Source of the DNA: Siphonodentalium dalli
Taxonomy: Eukaryota; Mollusca; Scaphopoda; Gadilida; Siphonodentaliidae
Direction: 5' to 3'
Assembly (NCBI GenBank): GCA_032622095.1
Contig: CP136067.1
Location: 128,189,030-128,253,029, forward strand
Length of the DNA stretch: 64,000 bases
Shown here: positions 7,400 through 62,330 of the stretch, one piece after another
Numbering within the stretch: position 1 is the first letter of the stretch
Layout of the letters: each line of letters opens with the position of its first letter
Notes under the pieces: model-generated
What the model was told of the DNA's origin: nothing
What the model saw: the letters and a program-made list of their open reading frames with translations, nothing else
Databases searched by the model: none
Program-made: the position numbers and the translations under genes

Positions 7400-8299
7400 A
7401 TATATAATACATAGGTCATTGATTTTATGATATTCTTCATTACTCCAATGTTCTTTTGAACTAATGGGTATAAGCCATATAACATAAAACTGCCCCCAGT
7501 CATTGATGTTATTTAAGTTAACTGGCGGTATGCATGTATCGAGACGGAACGACACGCATCGGGATGATCGAGTGTCATTTTAAATGCGCACGCTGAAGTG
7601 CGATTGTTTGGTTTTGATCCAGATAGGGCTTGCATGTACTGTCGTGCAGAATAGACCTGTATGAACTAAGTTCCAATCGCCAAGTCGATATATCAAGCGG
7701 AAACGGCGCTGTTAACCCATAACTTGCGGCCGATTCCGCCAGGTACGCAAAATCAAAAAGGCACCGACCGCACCTCACCTGACAACGGAAAGGGACATCA
7801 TATCATGTAGCGAATACCCCACTTCGTCCACGGCCGATCGGACAAGTTGCTAGCTATACCGGAAGTGAATGTATTAACCTTTACGCTGCGATCGAATTCG
7901 CTATTCATGTACTCAAAAACACAGAAAATAACACCCGCCAACCGTACCGTCACCAGGGGAGGGCGAGATAGGGTATGTATTATCGCGCAGAATAGACCTG
8001 TATGTACCAACCTTCCAATCCCCAAGTCGATATCTCAAGCGGAAACGCCAATGTTAACCCCTAACTTGCGGCCGATTCCACCAGGTACACAAAATAAAAA
8101 GGTACCCACCGCACCTCTCCTAGCCGCCTGACCACGGGAAACTGATCATTAAGGAAAGAATTGGGCCGCACCGGACTGGACAACCTACATGTAGTCAGTG
8201 GATCGGACCACCTAGTGTAGTTCGCTCCAGTTCGTATCACGAATGCGAACATTGTTCGTGCTGTATACTAAGTGGTTTCCTTGATGTTTATAAATGTTT

Positions 8300-8925
8300 T
8301 CATTAACTAGCAGTTTAGCATCATAGCCCCGTTAGAATCGAGTTTGAAACTCTCATTTCTATATTTGTTCTTAAATAGCAGTTTAGCAGCATAGCACTGC
8401 TAGGATCGAGTTTGAAATTCTATTTTCTTCATATTTGCATTAATTATCAGGTTAACAGCATAGCACAGCTAGAATCGAGTATGGAACTCCATTTTCTTAA
8501 TTTGCTAATGCATGTATTAAAAGTCTAGCAGCATAGCATCACTAGAATCGAGTTTGAAATTCCATTCTCTTAATTCTTTCATGTACATGTATTAATAGTT
8601 TAGCAGCAAAACATCGCTAGAATCCAGTTTGAAACTCTGGTTTCTTAATTGTTTCATTTATTATCAGTTTAGCAGTAGAGCACTGCTAGAATCGAGTTTG
8701 CAATTATATTTTCTTCATGTTATCATTAATTAGCAGTTTAGCAACATAGCACCACTAGAATCGAGTTTGAAACACACGTTTCTTACTGTTTTCATTAATT
8801 GGCAGTTTAGCAGCATATCACAGCCAGAGTTTGAAATTCCATTTTTTTTCATTTTTATCATTAATTAGCAATTTAGCAGCATAGCACCACTAGATTAAAG
8901 TTGAAACTGCATTTTCTTAATTCTG
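8300..8925 (+). repeat. ~70-bp tandem repeat, about nine copies
   Basis: Each unit contains 'cattaattagcagtttagcagcatagca' (split here by variation) followed by 'ctagaatcgagtttgaaa'. Copies begin near 8302, 8375, 8442, 8513, 8592, 8655, 8725, 8795 and 8862. They are diverged from each other, so the array is old. Confidence 0.85.
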
Positions 8926-8934
8926 TCATGACCT

Positions 8935-17717: not shown

Positions 17718-18573
17718 AACGCATTTAAGTCATGAAAAATACCCGATGTTTGGATACCAAACAAAAACAGCCACTTTCACGTCAAATAACAGAAAAGAGC
17801 GTTCCGTGTTAGTCTATTCTTGATATGGTAGCAATAAAGAGCGTTTGTTTCACTTCTGTGCGAAAAATTGTAAACAACTGGAAAAGGGCGCTGACCATGG
17901 TAAGTATTTCTCAGAAAATATGAGGCCGGTATATCTAATTATATCAACATTTCGTGTATTTTGCAACCAATCGTATGCACCCTTCCAAATTACTTAATCA
18001 AAATCTGGAAGCTCGAATGAGACTTGTCCGTTTAAAATTAACAGACTATCATGACAGTATATAGATGTCTAATTTCATTAGCTCAATTATATGGGTGAGC
18101 ATGATTATATATGAGCCAGTATACCCCACATTACTTTCAATATGCTGTCTGCCACTCGTGAAGGTACCTAATCTTCTGTTATACCAGATAGCTATACTCG
18201 TATTTCTTAATATACCTTTTGGATTATGTATATAATATACGCTACAGTAAGTATCTGGTTTAAAACGTCTGATATATACACAAAATTATATTCGGATCAA
18301 ATTGCAGAAATCGTTGAAATAAATATTATGTAAAGAACCGTAACAGCCATGGTTGCCTTTAAATAGAACCGTAACATGAATAAGGAGGCTAATGCTCCAA
18401 ATTACCAACCCACATAGGGATATTTCCTCAGCAATTTTACAGAAGAATAACACAGCTATACGTTATATTCAGTGATCGTCTTCAGAATGCGTTTCACGGT
18501 CGATATGCCACCGAAAATAAAGGAATTACGTTTACATGGCTTGATTTTCTGTTATTACAGTACATGTTGATAA
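17718..18573 (+). repeat. Dispersed repeat R1, copy 2 (uninterrupted)
   Basis: Matches the reverse complement of 3890-3541 and then 903-430. The continuity across 18135-18141 (TTTCAAT) shows the pre-insertion state of the site occupied by LINE-A in copy 1. Confidence 0.85.
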
Positions 18574-19805
18574 TTCACTCACTTTTTCTCACCGACAGAC
18601 AAACCACAATTTATTTTGTCCAAAATGATTTGTTCATATTCAATTTTTCATACTCATAAGTAATTGTTGATGAAAAATATGCCATATTATTTCATGACGA
18701 ATTCATTGAATTCACAGACAGAATTATCTCTCAGTACTAAATGTAAATTGTTTGACAAATTAATAATGCCTATTCTGTTGTATGGTTGCGAAATATGGGC
18801 TGCTGAGTTGAAATTTCCGTTTGTTGATAACTACCCTCTTGAGCAGACACATTTAAAGTTCTGTAAAAATATACTACAACTCAATATAAAAGCGTCAAAT
18901 CATGCTTCGAGGGCTGAAATAGGTCGATACCCCATAGCAATCAATGCCATCGGAAATATGTTCAAATATCTAAATAAACTTCGTTTTGCACAACCGGGAA
19001 ATATAATACATGTTTCTTTCACAGAATCTATATTATGTAATCTTCCAACGTGGGACACACATCTTGCGAAAAGCGGTATCAATATATCACAGTCTAATAA
19101 AACGATAGGATTCACCGACAAACTTATAATTGAGAGACTAAAATCAGAACATGTAAATTATTTAAAAAAAGATATATTCGATGACGACAAAATGAATGGT
19201 GCTAATAAACTACGCACATATAGTTCAACGTTCAAAGACAAATATGAAATAAGACCATACATCAAACACGTCCGATCAACAACAGCAAGAGAAATGTTCA
19301 CCCGACTGCGTATTAGCAATCATATATTAGCTATAGAAAAAGGCCGACACACACAGCCAAATACGTTATTAAAAGACAGAATGTTTCTCATGTGGGGAAA
19401 AAGTTTAAACTGAAAAACATTTCATAATGGAATGCAGTGCGTACACCGACTTCAGGAAATAATTATTTGATGTTGCTACATGTAGCACTAATAACATACA
19501 TTTTACAAATATGAACGATGATGATAAATTCATTTTTATAATTAAAAATGAAGACAAAGTAATTATGAATTCCGAGTGCAACATGATCCGGTTATTCTTC
19601 CAAAGGAGAACAAATATAAATATGGGGAAATGAAAATTATGGGAAATTTATATTTAATTAAGAATCGTATGTAGGATATAGTTATAGGTTTGTTTACTGT
19701 TATATGTACATATATTATGTATTATGTTTAATTTACTTGTACTTTATGTTATTTGCAACTGCCTGCACTGGTGTATTGCAATAAACTATATTATCTTATC
19801 TTATG
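18574..19805 (+). mobile_element. 5'-truncated L2/CR1-like non-LTR retrotransposon (LINE-B)
   Basis: This is the 3' part of a LINE: thumb region and C-terminal domain of ORF2, a short 3' UTR, an AATAAA at 19781-19786 and an (TTATC)n tail running to about 19804. It lies between repeat R1 and the zinc-finger array, directly abutting the latter. No target duplication is identifiable because the flanks are different repeats. The same 3' tail recurs three times inside the adjacent array. Confidence 0.8.
18664..19633 (+). pseudogene. LINE-B ORF2 C-terminal remnant
   Basis: The frame from 18664 to 19413 encodes the post-catalytic region of a LINE reverse transcriptase. The landmark 'ILLYGCEIW' is followed by a 'LEQTHLKFCKNIL'-like segment and an 'EIGRYPI' segment, all typical of the L2/CR1 group. 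After a one-base shift near 19380 the other frame gives C-x2-C-x9-H-x4-C (CFSC...HFIMEC) at about 19383-19440, the same C-terminal knuckle as in LINE-D at 60 kb, with internal stops at 19411 and 19465. The palm with the catalytic aspartates is missing. Inactive. Confidence 0.82.
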
Positions 19806-21302
19806 GAGTTTGCAATATGTTACAACTCAGAAGGTTATCCGAGCGGGCAAACCATTCTCACAGACATCACACACATAACGGTGGGAGACAGTGTGTGATC
19901 TCTTATTACTCACCATGTTATCTGAGCAGTCAAACCATTTCTCACAGACATCACACACATAAGGATGGGAGACCGTGTGGGATCTCTTATAACTCGCCAG
20001 GTTACCCGAGCGGGCAAACCATGCTCACATACATCACACACACAAGGGTGTGAGACCGTGTGGAATCCGTTATAAGACACCAGGTTATCCGATCGGTCAA
20101 ATCAATTCTCACAGACATCACGCACATAAGGGCGGGAGACCGTGTGGGATCTCATATAACTCACCAGGTTATCCGAGCGGGCGAACCAATTCTCACAGAC
20201 ATCACACACATAAGGGCGGGAGACCGTGTAGAATCTCTTATAATCCACAATGTTATCGAGGGGGCAAACCATTCTCACAGATATCACACACATAAGGGCG
20301 GGAGACCGTGTAGGATCTCTTATAACTCACAAGGTTATCCGAGCGGTCAAACCATTTCTCACAGACATCACACACATATGGGCGGGAGACCATGTGGAAT
20401 CTGTTATAACTCGACAGGTCATCTGAGCGGTCAAACCATTTCTCACAGACATCACACACATAATGGTGGGAGACAGTGTGGAATCTCTTATAACTCACCA
20501 GGTTATCCGAGCGGGCAAACCATTCTCACAGACATCACACACATAAGGGCGGGAGACCGTGTAGGGTCTCTTATAACTCACCAGGTTATCCGAGCGGGCA
20601 AACCATTATCACAGACATCACACACATAAGGGCGGGAGACAGTGTAGGATCTCTTATAACTCACAAGGTTATCCGAGCGGTCAAACCATTTCTCACAGAC
20701 ATCACACACATAAGGGTGTGAGACCGTTATAACTGACCAGGTTTATCCGATCGGGCAAACCATTATCACAGACATCACACACACACAAGGGCGGGAGACC
20801 GTGTGAGATCTCTTATAACTCACAAGGTTATCCGAGCGGGCGAACCATTTCTCAGAGACATCACACACATAATGGTGGGAGACCGTGTGGGATCTCTTAT
20901 AACTCACCAGGTTATCTGAGCGGGCAAACCATTCTCACAGACATCACACACAAAAGGGCGAGAGACCGTGTGGGATCTCGTATAACTCACCAGGTTATCC
21001 GAGCGGGCAAACCATTCTCACAGACATCACACACATAAGGGCGTGAGACCGTGCGGGATCTCTTATAACTCACAAGGTTATCTGAGCGGTCAAACCATTT
21101 CTCATAGACATCTCACACATAAGGGTGCGATACCGAGTGTAATCTCTTAAAAATCAACAGGTTATCCGAGCGGGCAAACCATTCTCACAAACATCACACA
21201 CATAAGGGTGGGAGACCGTGTGGAATCTATTATAACTCACCAGGTTATCCGAGCGGGCAAACCATTCTCAGAGACATCTCACACATAAGGGCGGAAGACA
21301 GT
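19806..21302 (-). repeat. Zinc-finger higher-order repeat, block 1
   Basis: About 18 units. It is preceded by LINE-B and followed by the short LINE tail at 21303. Confidence 0.85.
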
Positions 21303-21330
21303 GTCTATTGCAATAAACTATCTTATGGAG
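21303..21330 (+). mobile_element. LINE-B 3' tail embedded in array, copy 1
   Basis: 'tattgcaataaactatcttat' continues directly into zinc-finger sequence. The microsatellite is shorter than in the other copies. Confidence 0.85.
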
Positions 21331-22831
21331 TTTGGAATATGTTATAATCAGAAGGTAATCCGAGCGGGCAAACCATTCTCACAGACATCACTCACATAAG
21401 GGTGGGATACCGTGTGGGATCTATTATAACTCACAAGGTTATCCGAGCGGGCAAACACTTCTCACATACATCACACACATAAGGGCGGGAGACCGCGTTG
21501 GATCTCTTATAACTCACCAGGTTATCCGAGCGGGCAAACCATTCTCACAGACATCACACACATAAGGGCGGGATACCGAGGGATCTCTTATAACTCATCA
21601 GGTTATCCGAGCGGTCAAATCATTTCTCACAGACATCACGCACATAAGGGCGGGAGACCGTGTGGGATCTCATATAACTCACCAGGTTATCCGAGCGGGC
21701 GAACCATTTCTCACAGACATCACACACATAAGGGCGAGATACCGTGTAGAATCTCTTATAATTCACAATGTTATCCGAGGGGGCAAACCATTCTCACATA
21801 TATCACACACATAAGGGCGGGAGACCGTGTAGGATCTCTTATAACTCACAAGGTTATCCGAGCGGTCAAACCATTTCTCACAGACATCACACACATATGG
21901 GCGGGACACCATGTGGAATCTGTTATAACTCGACAGGTCATCTGAGTGGTCAAACCATTTCTCACAGACATCACACACATAATGGTGGGAGACAGTGTGC
22001 AATCTCTTATAACTCACCAGGTTATCCGAGCGGGCAAACCATTCTCACAGACATCACACACATAAGGGCGGGAGACCGTGTAGGGTCTCTTATAACTCAC
22101 CAGGTTATCCGAGCGGGCAAACCATTATCACATACATCACACACATAAGGGCGGGAGACAGTGTAGGATCTCTTATAACTCACAAGGTTATCCGAGCGGT
22201 CAAACCATTTCTCACAGACATCACACACATAAGGGTGTGAGACCGTGTGGAATCTGTTATAACTGACCAGGTTTATCCGATCGGGCAAACCATTATCACA
22301 GACATCACACACACAAGGGCGGGAGACCGTGTGGGATCTCTTATAACTCACAAGGTTATCCGAGCGGGCGAACCATTTCTCAGAGACATCACACACATAA
22401 TGGTGGGAGACCGTGTGGGATCTCTTATAACTCACCAGGTTATCTGAGCGGGCAAACCATTCTCACAGACATCACACACAAAAGGGCGAGAGACCGTGTG
22501 GGATCTCTTATAACTCACCAGGTTATCCGAGCGGGCAAACCATTCTCACAGACATCACACACATAAGGGCGGGAGACCGTGCGGGATCTCTTATAACTCA
22601 CAAGGTTATCTGAGCGGTCAAACCATTTATCATAGACATCTCACACATAAGGGTGCGATACCGAGTGTAATCTCTTAAAAATCAACAGGTTATCCGAGCG
22701 GGCAAACCATTCTCACAAACATCACACACATAAGGGTGGGAGACCGTGTGGAATCTATTATAACTCACCAGGTTATCCGAGCGGGCAAACCATTCTCAGA
22801 GACATCTCACACATAAGGGCGGAAGACAGTG
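21331..22831 (-). repeat. Zinc-finger higher-order repeat, block 2
   Basis: About 18 units, nearly identical to block 1 over long stretches (compare 20283 onward with 21792 onward). Confidence 0.85.
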
Positions 22832-22867
22832 TCTATTGCAATAAACTATCTTATCTTATCTTATGGA
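22832..22867 (+). mobile_element. LINE-B 3' tail embedded in array, copy 2
   Basis: 'tattgcaataaactat' plus (CTTAT)3, flanked on both sides by zinc-finger units. Confidence 0.87.
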
Positions 22868-24287
22868 GTTTGGAATATGTTATAATCAGAAGGTTATCCG
22901 AGCGGGCAAACACTTCTCACATACATCACACACATAAGGGCGGGAGACCGCGTAGGATCTCTTATAACTCACCAGGTTATCCGAGCGGGCAAACCATTCT
23001 CACAGACATCACACACATAAGGGCGGGCGACCGAGGGATCTCTTATAACTCATCAGGTTATCCGAGCGGTCAAATCATTTCTCACAGACATCACGCACAT
23101 AAGGGCGGGAGACCGTGTGGGATCTCATATAACTCACCAGGTTATCCGAGCGGGCGAACCATTTCTCACAGACATCACACACATAAGGGCGGGAGACCGT
23201 GTAGAATCTCTTATAATTCACAATGTTATCAGAGGGGGCAAACCATTCTCACAGATATCACACACATAAGGGCGGGAGACCGTGTAGGATCTCTTATAAC
23301 TCACAAGGTTATCCGAGCGGTAAACCATTTCTCACAGACATCACACACATATGGGCGGGAGATATTGTGGAATCTGTTATAACTCGACAGGTCATCTCTG
23401 AGTGGTCAAACCATTTCTCACAGACATCACACACATAATGGTGGGAGACAGTGTAGAATCTCTTATAACTCACCAGGTTATCCGAGCGGGCAAACCATTC
23501 TCACAGACATCACACACATAAGGGCGGGATACCGTGTAGGGTCTCTTATAACTCACCAGGTTATCCGAGCGGGCAAACCATTATCACATACATCACACAC
23601 ATAAGGGCGGGAGACAGTGTAGGATCTCTTATAACTCACAAGGTTATCCGAGCGGTCAAACCATTTCTCACAGACATCACTCACATAAGGGTGTGAGACC
23701 GTGTGGAATCTGTTATAACTGACCAGGTTTATCCGATCGGCCAAACCATTATCACATACATCACACACATAAGGGCGGGAGACCGTGTGGGATCTCTTAT
23801 AACTCACAAGGTTATCCGAGCGGGCGAACCATTTCTCAGAGACATCACACACATAAGGATGGGAGACCGTGTGGGATCTCTTATACCTCACCAGGTTATC
23901 TGAGCGGGCAAACCATTATCACATACATCACACACAAAAGGACGAGAGACCGTGTGAGATCTCTTATAACTCACCAGGTTATCCGAGCGGGCAAACCATT
24001 CTCACAGACATCACACACATAAGGGCGGGAGACCGTGTGGGATCTCTTATAACTCACAAGGTTATCTGAGCGGTCAAACCATTTCTCATAGACATCTCAC
24101 ACATAAGGGTGGGAGACCGTGTGTAATCTCTTAAAAATCAACAGGTTATCCGAGCGGGCAAACCATTCTCACAAACATCACACACATAAGGGTGGGAGAC
24201 CGTGTGGAATCTATTATAACTCACCAGGTTATCCGAGCGGGCAAACCATTCTCAGAGACATCTCACACATAAGGGCGGAAGACAGTG
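22868..24287 (-). repeat. Zinc-finger higher-order repeat, block 3
   Basis: About 17 units, one fewer than blocks 1 and 2. Otherwise the same order of unit variants. Confidence 0.85.
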
Positions 24288-24324
24288 TATATTGCAATAA
24301 ACTATCTTATCTTATCTTATGGAG
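24288..24324 (+). mobile_element. LINE-B 3' tail embedded in array, copy 3
   Basis: 'tatattgcaataaactat' plus (CTTAT)3, in the same position relative to the finger units as copies 1 and 2. Confidence 0.87.
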
Positions 24325-24890
24325 TTTGGAATATGTTATAATCAGAATGTTATCCGAGCGGGCAAATCATTCTCACATACATCACACATAAGGGTGAGAG
24401 ACCGTGTGGAATCTGTTATAACTCACCAGGTTATCCGAGCGGGCAAATCATCTCACAGACATCACACACATACGGGTGGGAGACCGTGTGGGATCTATTG
24501 TAACTCACAAGGTTATCCGAGCGGGCAAACCGTTCTCACAGACATCACACACATAAGGGCGGGAGACCGCGTGGGATCTCTTATAACTCACCAGGTTATC
24601 CGAGCGGGCAAACCATTCTCACAGACATCACACATATAAGGGCGGGAGACCGAGGGATCTCTTATAACTCACCAGGTTATCCGAGCGGGCAAACCATTCT
24701 CACAGACATCACTCACATAAGGGTGGGAGACCGTGTGGGATATATTATAACTCACCAGGTTATCCGAGCGGGCAAACCAATCTCACAGACATCACACACA
24801 GAAGGGTGGGAGACCGTGTGGGATCACCTATAACTCACCAGGTTATCTGAGCGGGCAAACCATTTTCACATACATCACACTAAAATGGAC
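24325..24890 (-). repeat. Zinc-finger higher-order repeat, partial block 4
   Basis: About seven units, after which the repeat stops and non-amplified finger sequence begins. Confidence 0.82.
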
Positions 24891-24965
24891 GTCCCTCAGT
24901 ATGGACTTCGATGAAACGTCAGATTCCCGACTACAGATTGTCCTCACATGTGACATATTTCGGAA
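24860..24965 (-). pseudogene. Zinc-finger relic at the array edge
   Basis: On the minus strand the edge unit reads into 'VHTEGRPF', a stop, then CDVCENG. The linker differs from the TVSRP linker of the array, so this looks like the unamplified neighbour of the founder finger. Stops interrupt it. Confidence 0.65.
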
Positions 24966-26064: not shown

Positions 26065-26610
26065 AAGCCTGGCTTGCGAACTCATTTTAGGTGCTGACAT
26101 TTATGGAAATTAGCCATGTGACATCGTCCATTTGCACCAATAACTCTGCTGAAATATCCGGCCGGACCTGGTTTGCGAACTCGTTCTAGATACTGGTCAT
26201 GTGAACTCATATACCAAAAATCTTTGAAATCCGTTGACATTTGTCGATATGAGCACTGTGACGTCGTCCATTTGAACACAAAAATATAAACAAAGTCCAA
26301 TAACTCTGAAGAAAATATCCGGCCGGACCTGGTTTACGATCTCGTTCTAGATACTGGTCATGTAAACTCATATACCAAAAATCTTTGAAATCCGTTGACA
26401 TTTGTGGAAATGAGCCCTGTGACGTCGTCTATTTGCTATTTGGTAAATTCGACAAAAATTATAAACAATGTCCAATAACTCCGGTAAAAATATCCGGCCG
26501 GACCTGGCTTGCGAACTCATTCTATGTAATGGTCAGGTGAACTCATATTCCACAAATCTTTTAAATCCGTTGACATTTGTTCAAGTTATGACTCTTAAAA
26601 ATTCGGGACG
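26065..26610 (+). repeat. ~165-175-bp tandem repeat, about 3.5 copies
   Basis: 'tccggccggacctgg' recurs at 26157, 26318 and 26492. Each is followed by 'gaactc...tctagatactggtcatgt' and 'aaatccgttgacatttgt'. A partial first unit precedes 26157. Confidence 0.88.
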
Positions 26611-26704
26611 GACGGGCGGAACCCATTCCTATATCCCCCGCAAATTTTCAATTTGGCGAGGGATGATAACTATTGCTATGTTATATGTTTATGAATATGA
26701 ATAC

Positions 26705-26865
26705 GGACACTTCCCAGTGTAAATCATGCTGTTCCTCAGATTATCCAAGTTAGCGAACGATTGTTCACAGACATCACACTGAAATGGACGGGTCTCAATG
26801 TGAACATGTGATGTGACCGATTTTATGCTTTGTTACATATATCACAACGATAAGAACTCTTCTGA
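26705..26865 (-). pseudogene. Zinc-finger relic, two fingers
   Basis: One minus-strand frame gives 'HIETRPFQCDVCEQSFANLD' followed by NLRNS, a C2H2 finger with its linker. The adjacent upstream frame gives 'SYRCDICNKA', a stop and NRSHH, the first half of another finger. A frameshift lies between them and the distal histidine positions have decayed. Confidence 0.75.
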
Positions 26866-29220: not shown

Positions 29221-29275
29221 AACTATACAGTACTAGATTTAATGAGGATGTGTCAGCGCTTCTGATTGGTTCAAT

Positions 29276-29498
29276 CTCCTGTGTGGATTCGTTTATGTGC
29301 CGTTAGATGGTGAGACCGATTAAATTATTTCCCACACCTCACATGTATATGGGCGGTCCCTGTGTGGATTCTATTATGAGCGATCAATTGATGAGGCCGA
29401 CTGAACGATTTCTCACAATTATCACATGAATATGGATGGTCAATTGATGAGGCCGACTGAACGATTTCTCACAATTATCACATGAATATGGATGGTCA
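29276..29498 (-). pseudogene. Zinc-finger relic with duplicated finger segment
   Basis: On the minus strand, 'HPYSCDNCEKSFSRPHQL' occurs twice because a ~63-bp segment is directly duplicated. The second copy continues through I-AHNRIHTG, a finger with both histidines intact. A further degraded finger follows and ends near 'HLTAHKRIHTG'. The stretch retains the canonical HTG linker, unlike the array. Stops and shifts make it non-coding. Confidence 0.82.
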
Positions 29499-30269: not shown

Positions 30270-30329
30270 TATGATATAATCTTGAGTGTGACTATAACGG
30301 TGGATATTTCACTTTATGTGGGTCCTGTG

Positions 30330-30383
30330 GCTTAAGTCAGATTATTGGATTGAGTAAACGATTTTCCGCAAACGTCGCATTTA
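30330..30383 (-). pseudogene. Zinc finger interrupted by the 11.4-kb element, C-terminal side
   Basis: The minus strand reads 'KCDVCGKSFTQSNNLT' and then a stop. The sequence just upstream in the gene is displaced to 41819-41875 by the element at 30384-41818. Confidence 0.75.
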
Positions 30384-62173: not shown

Positions 62174-62330
62174 TGAAAACTTCAAAAATTTCAAAAATTT
62201 CAAAAAGTTCAAAAATTTCAAAAAGTTCAAAAATTTCAAAAAGTTCAAAAAGTTCAAAAAGTTCAAAAATTTCAAAAATTTCAAAAATTTCAAAAATTTC
62301 ACAAATTTCAAAAAATTTCAAAAATTAAAC
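62174..62330 (+). repeat. 9-bp minisatellite TTCAAAAAK, about 17 copies
   Basis: TTCAAAAAT and TTCAAAAAG units alternate. The open frame across it on the minus strand (repeating FEI/FEL) is a by-product of the 9-bp period. Confidence 0.92.

Follow-up and report, generated by a model that had tools for sequence, protein, structure and literature searches.

A locus-specific higher-order minisatellite built of zinc-finger-derived units with a LINE fragment at its block boundaries

Within a 64,000-nucleotide stretch of the Siphonodentalium dalli genome (contig CP136067.1; the whole stretch is referred to here as the window), positions 19806-24890 possess 59 near-complete units of 83/84 bp on the minus strand, which are homologs of C2H2 zinc fingers and are organised in blocks. 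This array, as observed in the original prediction, is real in the assembly and is a locus-specific higher-order minisatellite; it most likely has no function, none being indicated. The best overall explanation, and one which we regard as very probable, is that an array of dead fingers was duplicated in blocks together with the edge of a LINE.

Block organisation of the array

Wrap-around alignment of 19806-24890 gave 61 segments, of which the 59 with at least 70 aligned columns were kept, two partial end pieces being excluded from this set. With TRF, 83-bp arrays were identified at 19820-21304, 21342-22832, 22880-24288, and 24349-24880. There are four blocks of dead zinc-finger units on the minus strand, namely block A (19805-21306, unit positions p00-p17), block B (21327-22834), block C (22865-24290), which is one unit shorter than B, and the fragmentary block D (24321-24884). 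Blocks B and C were each delimited with TRF, alignment and tree. Approximately 60 minus-strand C2H2 units of 83-84 bp in blocks of about 18, 18, 17, and 7 had been predicted, and both the units recovered by TRF and wrap-around alignment and their counts per block (~18 in A, ~18 in B, ~17 in C, ~7 in D) match this.

When placed in register over spans of 1.4-1.5 kb, blocks A and B are 95.6% identical, A and C 94.8% and B and C 97.5%, against 85.5-88.0% out of register for these pairs (three alignments per pair). The blocks A, B, and C are therefore more alike than their monomers, as had been claimed, a feature not shared by block D. Core differences amount to 13/1156 sites for A-B, 27/1154 for A-C, and 27/1166 for B-C. 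The best match of a unit lies at an offset of 18 units in 24 cases, 17 in 14 cases and 35 in 11 cases, accounting for 49 of the 59 units, while the top three offsets total at most 24 when unit order is shuffled (n = 2000).

In the unit tree, which is based on few columns and has 18 of its 49 inner branches open, 12 of the 14 core positions p04-p17 cluster across blocks (10 in the tree table, with p16 and p17 in the tree drawing); p06, p13 and positions p01-p03 of block A do not cluster by equivalent position. Across all position groups, the position label changes 23 times (minimum 18, shuffled mean 48.7), while the label of block alone changes 33 times for three blocks, and from these counts it follows that the units group by position and not by block. 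Clustering of equivalent positions across blocks, and not of neighbours within a block, was the check set for the original prediction; together with register identity and the offset shuffles it supports the higher-order organisation that had been proposed. A nested period of 3 or 5 units (TRF periods 250 and 418) was also considered and rejected, as lags 1-9 among the 17 units of block B never beat order shuffles (lowest p 0.155).

The blocks had been described as nearly identical to each other, which is the case for A, B, and C but not for block D, which reaches only 88.0-89.8% identity to them at each of its three best registers, with no block-level identity. The tree places units u55, u56, and u57 of this block with p01, p02, and p03 of blocks B and C, and puts its last two units, u58-u59, elsewhere and off register. 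By raw differences u56 is clear (1/83); u55 (8/84) and u57 (7/82) are not distinguishable from the out-of-register u58 (7/84). On identity, tree and difference counts, block D was thus rejected as a full fourth block and is considered a fragment.

The start of block A is also irregular, with its first three full units diverged from those of block B at 14, 8, and 14 positions; B and C differ near the block start by 1 and 2 at p02 and p03. Since A and B resemble each other most in the core but B and C at the block start, exchange must have proceeded in steps and in a mosaic fashion. Two positions are combined in the mosaic unit u03, its first third having 1 difference to p03 (u21) and its last third 1 difference to p11 (u29). 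The claim that the last amplification acted on whole blocks of ~1.5 kb consequently holds for the bulk of the array, but single units were exchanged as well.

Zinc-finger origin and lesions of the units

The proposed C2H2 origin is borne out by the Pfam domain zf-H2C2_2, which is above its cut-off in two of the four scanned array frames, with PF00096 remaining below its own. In addition, an nhmmer model from 44 fingers of four other loci detects array units, and the C2H2 homology extends to the 28-residue spacing. The array has neither a continuous frame nor a unit with all four ligands (0/59), in line with the predicted loss of coding capacity. In the aligned codon columns, the first zinc-binding His is present in 0/59 units and is replaced by Tyr in 52/59, while C1 is found in 47, C2 in 50, and the second His in 35. 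As a control, fingers at six other loci were collected with a pattern without requirement for the first His, and 56 of these 57 fingers possess it. The fingers used for the 44-finger model and for a codon-diversity comparison were picked by a pattern requiring both His and are therefore no control for the missing one.

A second lesion is a 1-nt gap at codons 5-6, present in 35/59 units; blocks A, B, and C have it at an identical set of 9 out of 17 positions, and block D in all seven units. Because of these shared positions, it is concluded that, before the blocks were copied, either monomers carrying the lesion were amplified or a short A run suffered it more than once. The deletion sits in a run of three A and could represent recurrence rather than spread. 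The founder finger that was amplified was probably already dead. The longest coding-strand open run among those listed is 121 aa. On the plus strand, opposite the fingers, there are open frames of 243 aa (22651-23382) and 191 aa (20054-20629), which are probably a by-product of the repeat. The linker of the unit consensus is HTVSRP; among 64 HTxx[RK]P linkers at the six other loci, 41 have GD and none has VS at the variable residues.

Differences between equivalent units fall at codon position 3 at 21/33 sites, or 13/25 without two recurrent columns. By our own count, this split is 14/20 in units with the gap and 7/13 in units without it. Selection on the reading frame was rejected as the cause, the excess being no weaker in gap units; it stands against plain neutrality and stays unexplained. 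Diversity among units at the three codon positions is 0.086, 0.117, and 0.143, values which do not cleanly separate dead from living fingers, and the pattern is much alike in units with and without the gap. C-to-A changes (AGAC to ATAC on the plus strand) were also seen at two unit columns, in 10 of the 59 units at column 9 and in 6 at column 69, recurring at unrelated unit positions, and these may be due to a mutational hotspot, conversion or systematic base-call error.

Relics of other fingers lie beyond the array, all on the minus strand. Adjoining the first array unit there is a possible degenerate finger part (24885-24927; HTEGRPF, stop, CDVC), whose nhmmer match has no significance by itself (E 0.62) although it keeps the register of the array. 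A relic C2H2 finger at 26701-26778 is detected by the finger model (E 3.3e-9) and, over 26733-26778, by the array model (E 4.2e-5), and is accompanied by a weak one at 26802-26846 (E 0.077). Three relic fingers are located at 29272-29482 (E 2.7e-13, 8.8e-11, and 8.8e-5), one of which has all four ligands in translation (CDNCEKSFSRPHQLIAHNRIH), and a further one, broken by a stop in its translation, at 30318-30379 (E 1.4e-6). The relic finger at 29.4 kb retains the first His. An exact 56-bp tandem duplication (29384-29498, TRF 100% match) lies inside a relic finger.

The LINE at the block boundaries and the proposed history

The array is abutted by the (CTTAT)n tail of a 5′-truncated LINE on the plus strand (18688-19804), consisting of the C-terminal part of the reverse transcriptase frame and the 3′ end. 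The query 18664-19830 gave 40 other match rows (40 of 941 first-look candidates having been scored) with 93-95% identity, nearly all of which begin at query position 25 (18688), while most long rows end at 1135-1144, within a few bases of 19804. A fuller copy, L008, encodes RVT_1 (E 2.2e-38), which provides the reverse-transcriptase family, and the CTTAT-repeat tail is common to L008 and a further copy, L009. The 249-aa LINE frame of the window itself had no match in the Pfam scan.

The last 20-30 bp of this LINE recur on the plus strand at all three inner junctions, namely A/B (21307-21326, 20 bp), B/C (22835-22864, 30 bp), and C/D (24291-24320, 30 bp), and the spacing between the tails, and hence between block starts, is 1532, 1528, and 1456 bp. 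With the tails at 21307, 22835, and 24291 recurs also the joint of LINE and array, GGAGTTTG[G/C]AATATGTTA, which leads into the same cut finger unit. The block boundary is thus set by the LINE 3′ end and the duplicated segment is the LINE tail with ~17.5 units; as this segment includes the tail, the LINE predates the blocks. That the LINE is part of the block, giving both its boundary and an order of events, was missing from the original prediction. The C form of ATTGCAATAAAC is not restricted to the LINE copy of the window, having 34 exact genomic matches (this copy included) against 85 for the T form, and is only weak evidence that the separators derive from this particular copy; better evidence is the LINE/array joint that they have in common.

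To the left of each inner tail, AGTGT(C/A)T precedes ATTGC where the LINE reads GGTGT, so that GTGT is common to the array and the LINE and two bases have been added. The junctions look like one tandem duplication, apparently by end joining, which was copied afterwards. The best shared word around the LINE that might represent a target-site duplication is 6 bp and not adjacent to its ends, and the finger-model search left of it gave no match better than E 0.9 (a single one at E 0.97); insertion into the array is therefore not demonstrated, and the two could have been brought together by rearrangement instead. Other dispersed repeats are matched on both flanks, at 18300-18575 to the left of the LINE and from ~25050 onwards to the right. 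The matters of the target-site duplication and of the third-position excess bear on the early history of the locus and not on its description. Compared with L008 and L009, the LINE copy has private differences at 42/1108 sites, a figure that includes subfamily divergence; set beside the 13-27 core differences between blocks, whose ages conversion can reset, it is consistent with an older LINE and later blocks.

The beginnings of the locus, the sequence of its first events and the kind of recombination involved are inferred as follows. A polydactyl C2H2 gene on the minus strand would have died, and one finger, its first His already lost, would have multiplied on the 3′ flank of the relic to form an array of 83/84-bp monomers, presumably by unequal exchange or slippage. 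The 1-nt deletion would have come to fill about half of the positions, and a 5′-truncated LINE would have ended up at the array edge. A tandem duplication may then have joined the array after p17 to a point 30 bp inside the LINE 3′ end, the GTGT on both sides and the two extra bases suggesting end joining or replication switching. The result would have been a 1.5-kb block of LINE tail and p00-p17, copied again through unequal exchange between blocks, with some single-unit exchange and a loss in the last block.

Near-identical tandem blocks are a known assembly hazard. That a single real block was repeated by the assembler is nevertheless improbable, as core sites differ by 1.1-2.3% between blocks, tail lengths differ among them, the first units of A and B differ at 8-14 positions per 84, and the window is without any N; the number of block copies in the assembly could still be wrong. 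Less probable again is a living or recently living polydactyl gene, a PRDM9-like coding minisatellite seen as a damaged allele. Such a gene would suit the 84-bp unit and homogenisation across the array, the open coding-strand runs (up to 121 aa) and the third-position excess, but it is at odds with the lack of any unit with all four ligands, the codon 5-6 gap in 35/59, a linker with VS where the other loci have GD in 41/64 and VS in 0/64, and the location of the longer open frames (up to 243 aa) on the opposite strand.

We give an equally small chance to amplification driven by the LINE itself, through repeated reverse transcription or template switching leaving a tail with each block. A LINE tail is indeed found at every block boundary, but all four tails have the identical joint to an identical cut unit, and blocks B and C repeat the array units in register as well as the tail. 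This same joint and in-register copying argue for one duplicated junction rather than independent insertions. Block duplication of a dead-finger array with its LINE edge thus remains the preferred reading, and the array is an unusual yet understandable local event and not a widespread satellite.

Relation to known systems and to the rest of the genome

Alpha-satellite higher-order repeats consist of divergent monomers grouped so that one block resembles another far more closely than monomer resembles monomer. A comparable block grouping of divergent monomers is found in this array. Unlike alpha satellite (its higher-order repeats being treated in PMC4431391), the array is one 5-kb locus with three full blocks; its monomer derives from a known protein domain, each block includes a fragment of a LINE, and there is no sign of a centromeric role. 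The coding minisatellite of PRDM9 has 84-bp finger repeats changing by duplication, deletion and conversion, and its decayed paralogue PRDM7 has, in ruminants, 84-base units with disruptive mutations in zinc-finger sequences of 627-960 bp, with no higher-order blocks described in the accessible text of either source (PMC3890296, PMC4874674). The array may be likened to these in its 84-bp finger repeats, and differs from PRDM7 in having ~60 units multiplied together with the lesion.

Megasatellites with transposable elements in their unit, in which an element-collecting region was then tandemly amplified, have units mostly >2 kb, and the sections seen of that report describe no higher-order array of dead protein-domain repeats (PMC2588610). 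The array resembles these in the tandem amplification of mobile-element sequence with a host region, and differs in being higher-order and built of such repeats. Rye tandem repeats co-amplified with adjacent transposable elements have no or very short junction spacers, interpreted as end joining (PMC4857426). The element/array junctions described here are similar in this respect; however, the rye arrays are large, lie in plant heterochromatin and involve other element types. For the CapA satellite, an origin in an intron of NOS1AP has been suggested, and it is a true satellite in platyrrhines (PMC8210747). It too is a tandem array arising from a gene piece, but CapA is intron-derived and a real satellite, while this array comes from finger-coding sequence and occupies one locus.

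There are precedents for higher-order arrays, for coding minisatellites and decayed arrays of fingers, and for megasatellites bearing mobile elements, but the literature search did not turn up all of them combined at a single locus where the lesion and the boundary element can be read. This search, covering titles and the starts of abstracts, gave no description of a non-coding higher-order array of zinc-finger units, which is not proof of absence. The locus shows the formation of a higher-order repeat at an early and legible stage, and because its source domain, founder lesion, boundary element and fragmentary last block are still visible, the order of events is testable in relatives. It is also a speculative and rather doubtful suggestion that higher-order satellites can arise anew from a dead zinc finger, with the loss of ligand and frame lifting selection against length change and a LINE tail at the edge giving the block boundary; the locus would then represent a satellite that is only beginning to emerge from coding sequence and may still be expanding in the population.

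A 639-base probe from block C matched 14 times within this locus and, at 64-76% identity, 33 times outside it, and six of the outside places were inspected and are finger loci. By this search, which skips very common words, the array is at one locus only; a widespread satellite was therefore rejected, and the word satellite, as used in the original prediction, does not apply in its usual sense. No close parent gene was identified, since among the protein matches listed from elsewhere identity is at most 53%. The genome looks rich in C2H2 fingers, with 30543 first-look PF00096 candidates, of which 150 were scored, and the locus shows one fate of dead fingers in such a setting. A finger array elsewhere, L014 (G000:C7:175249000-175250600), has near-identical 28-aa units with frame breaks and is possibly another young array losing its frame.

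Other tandem repeats are also present in the window. A 161-bp repeat of 2.6 copies (26137-26580) occupies part of the interval that separates the array from its nearest clear relic finger, about nine 69-bp units occur in tandem at 8293-8929, and a 9-bp AAAATTTCA array of ~17 copies is located at 62176-62326.
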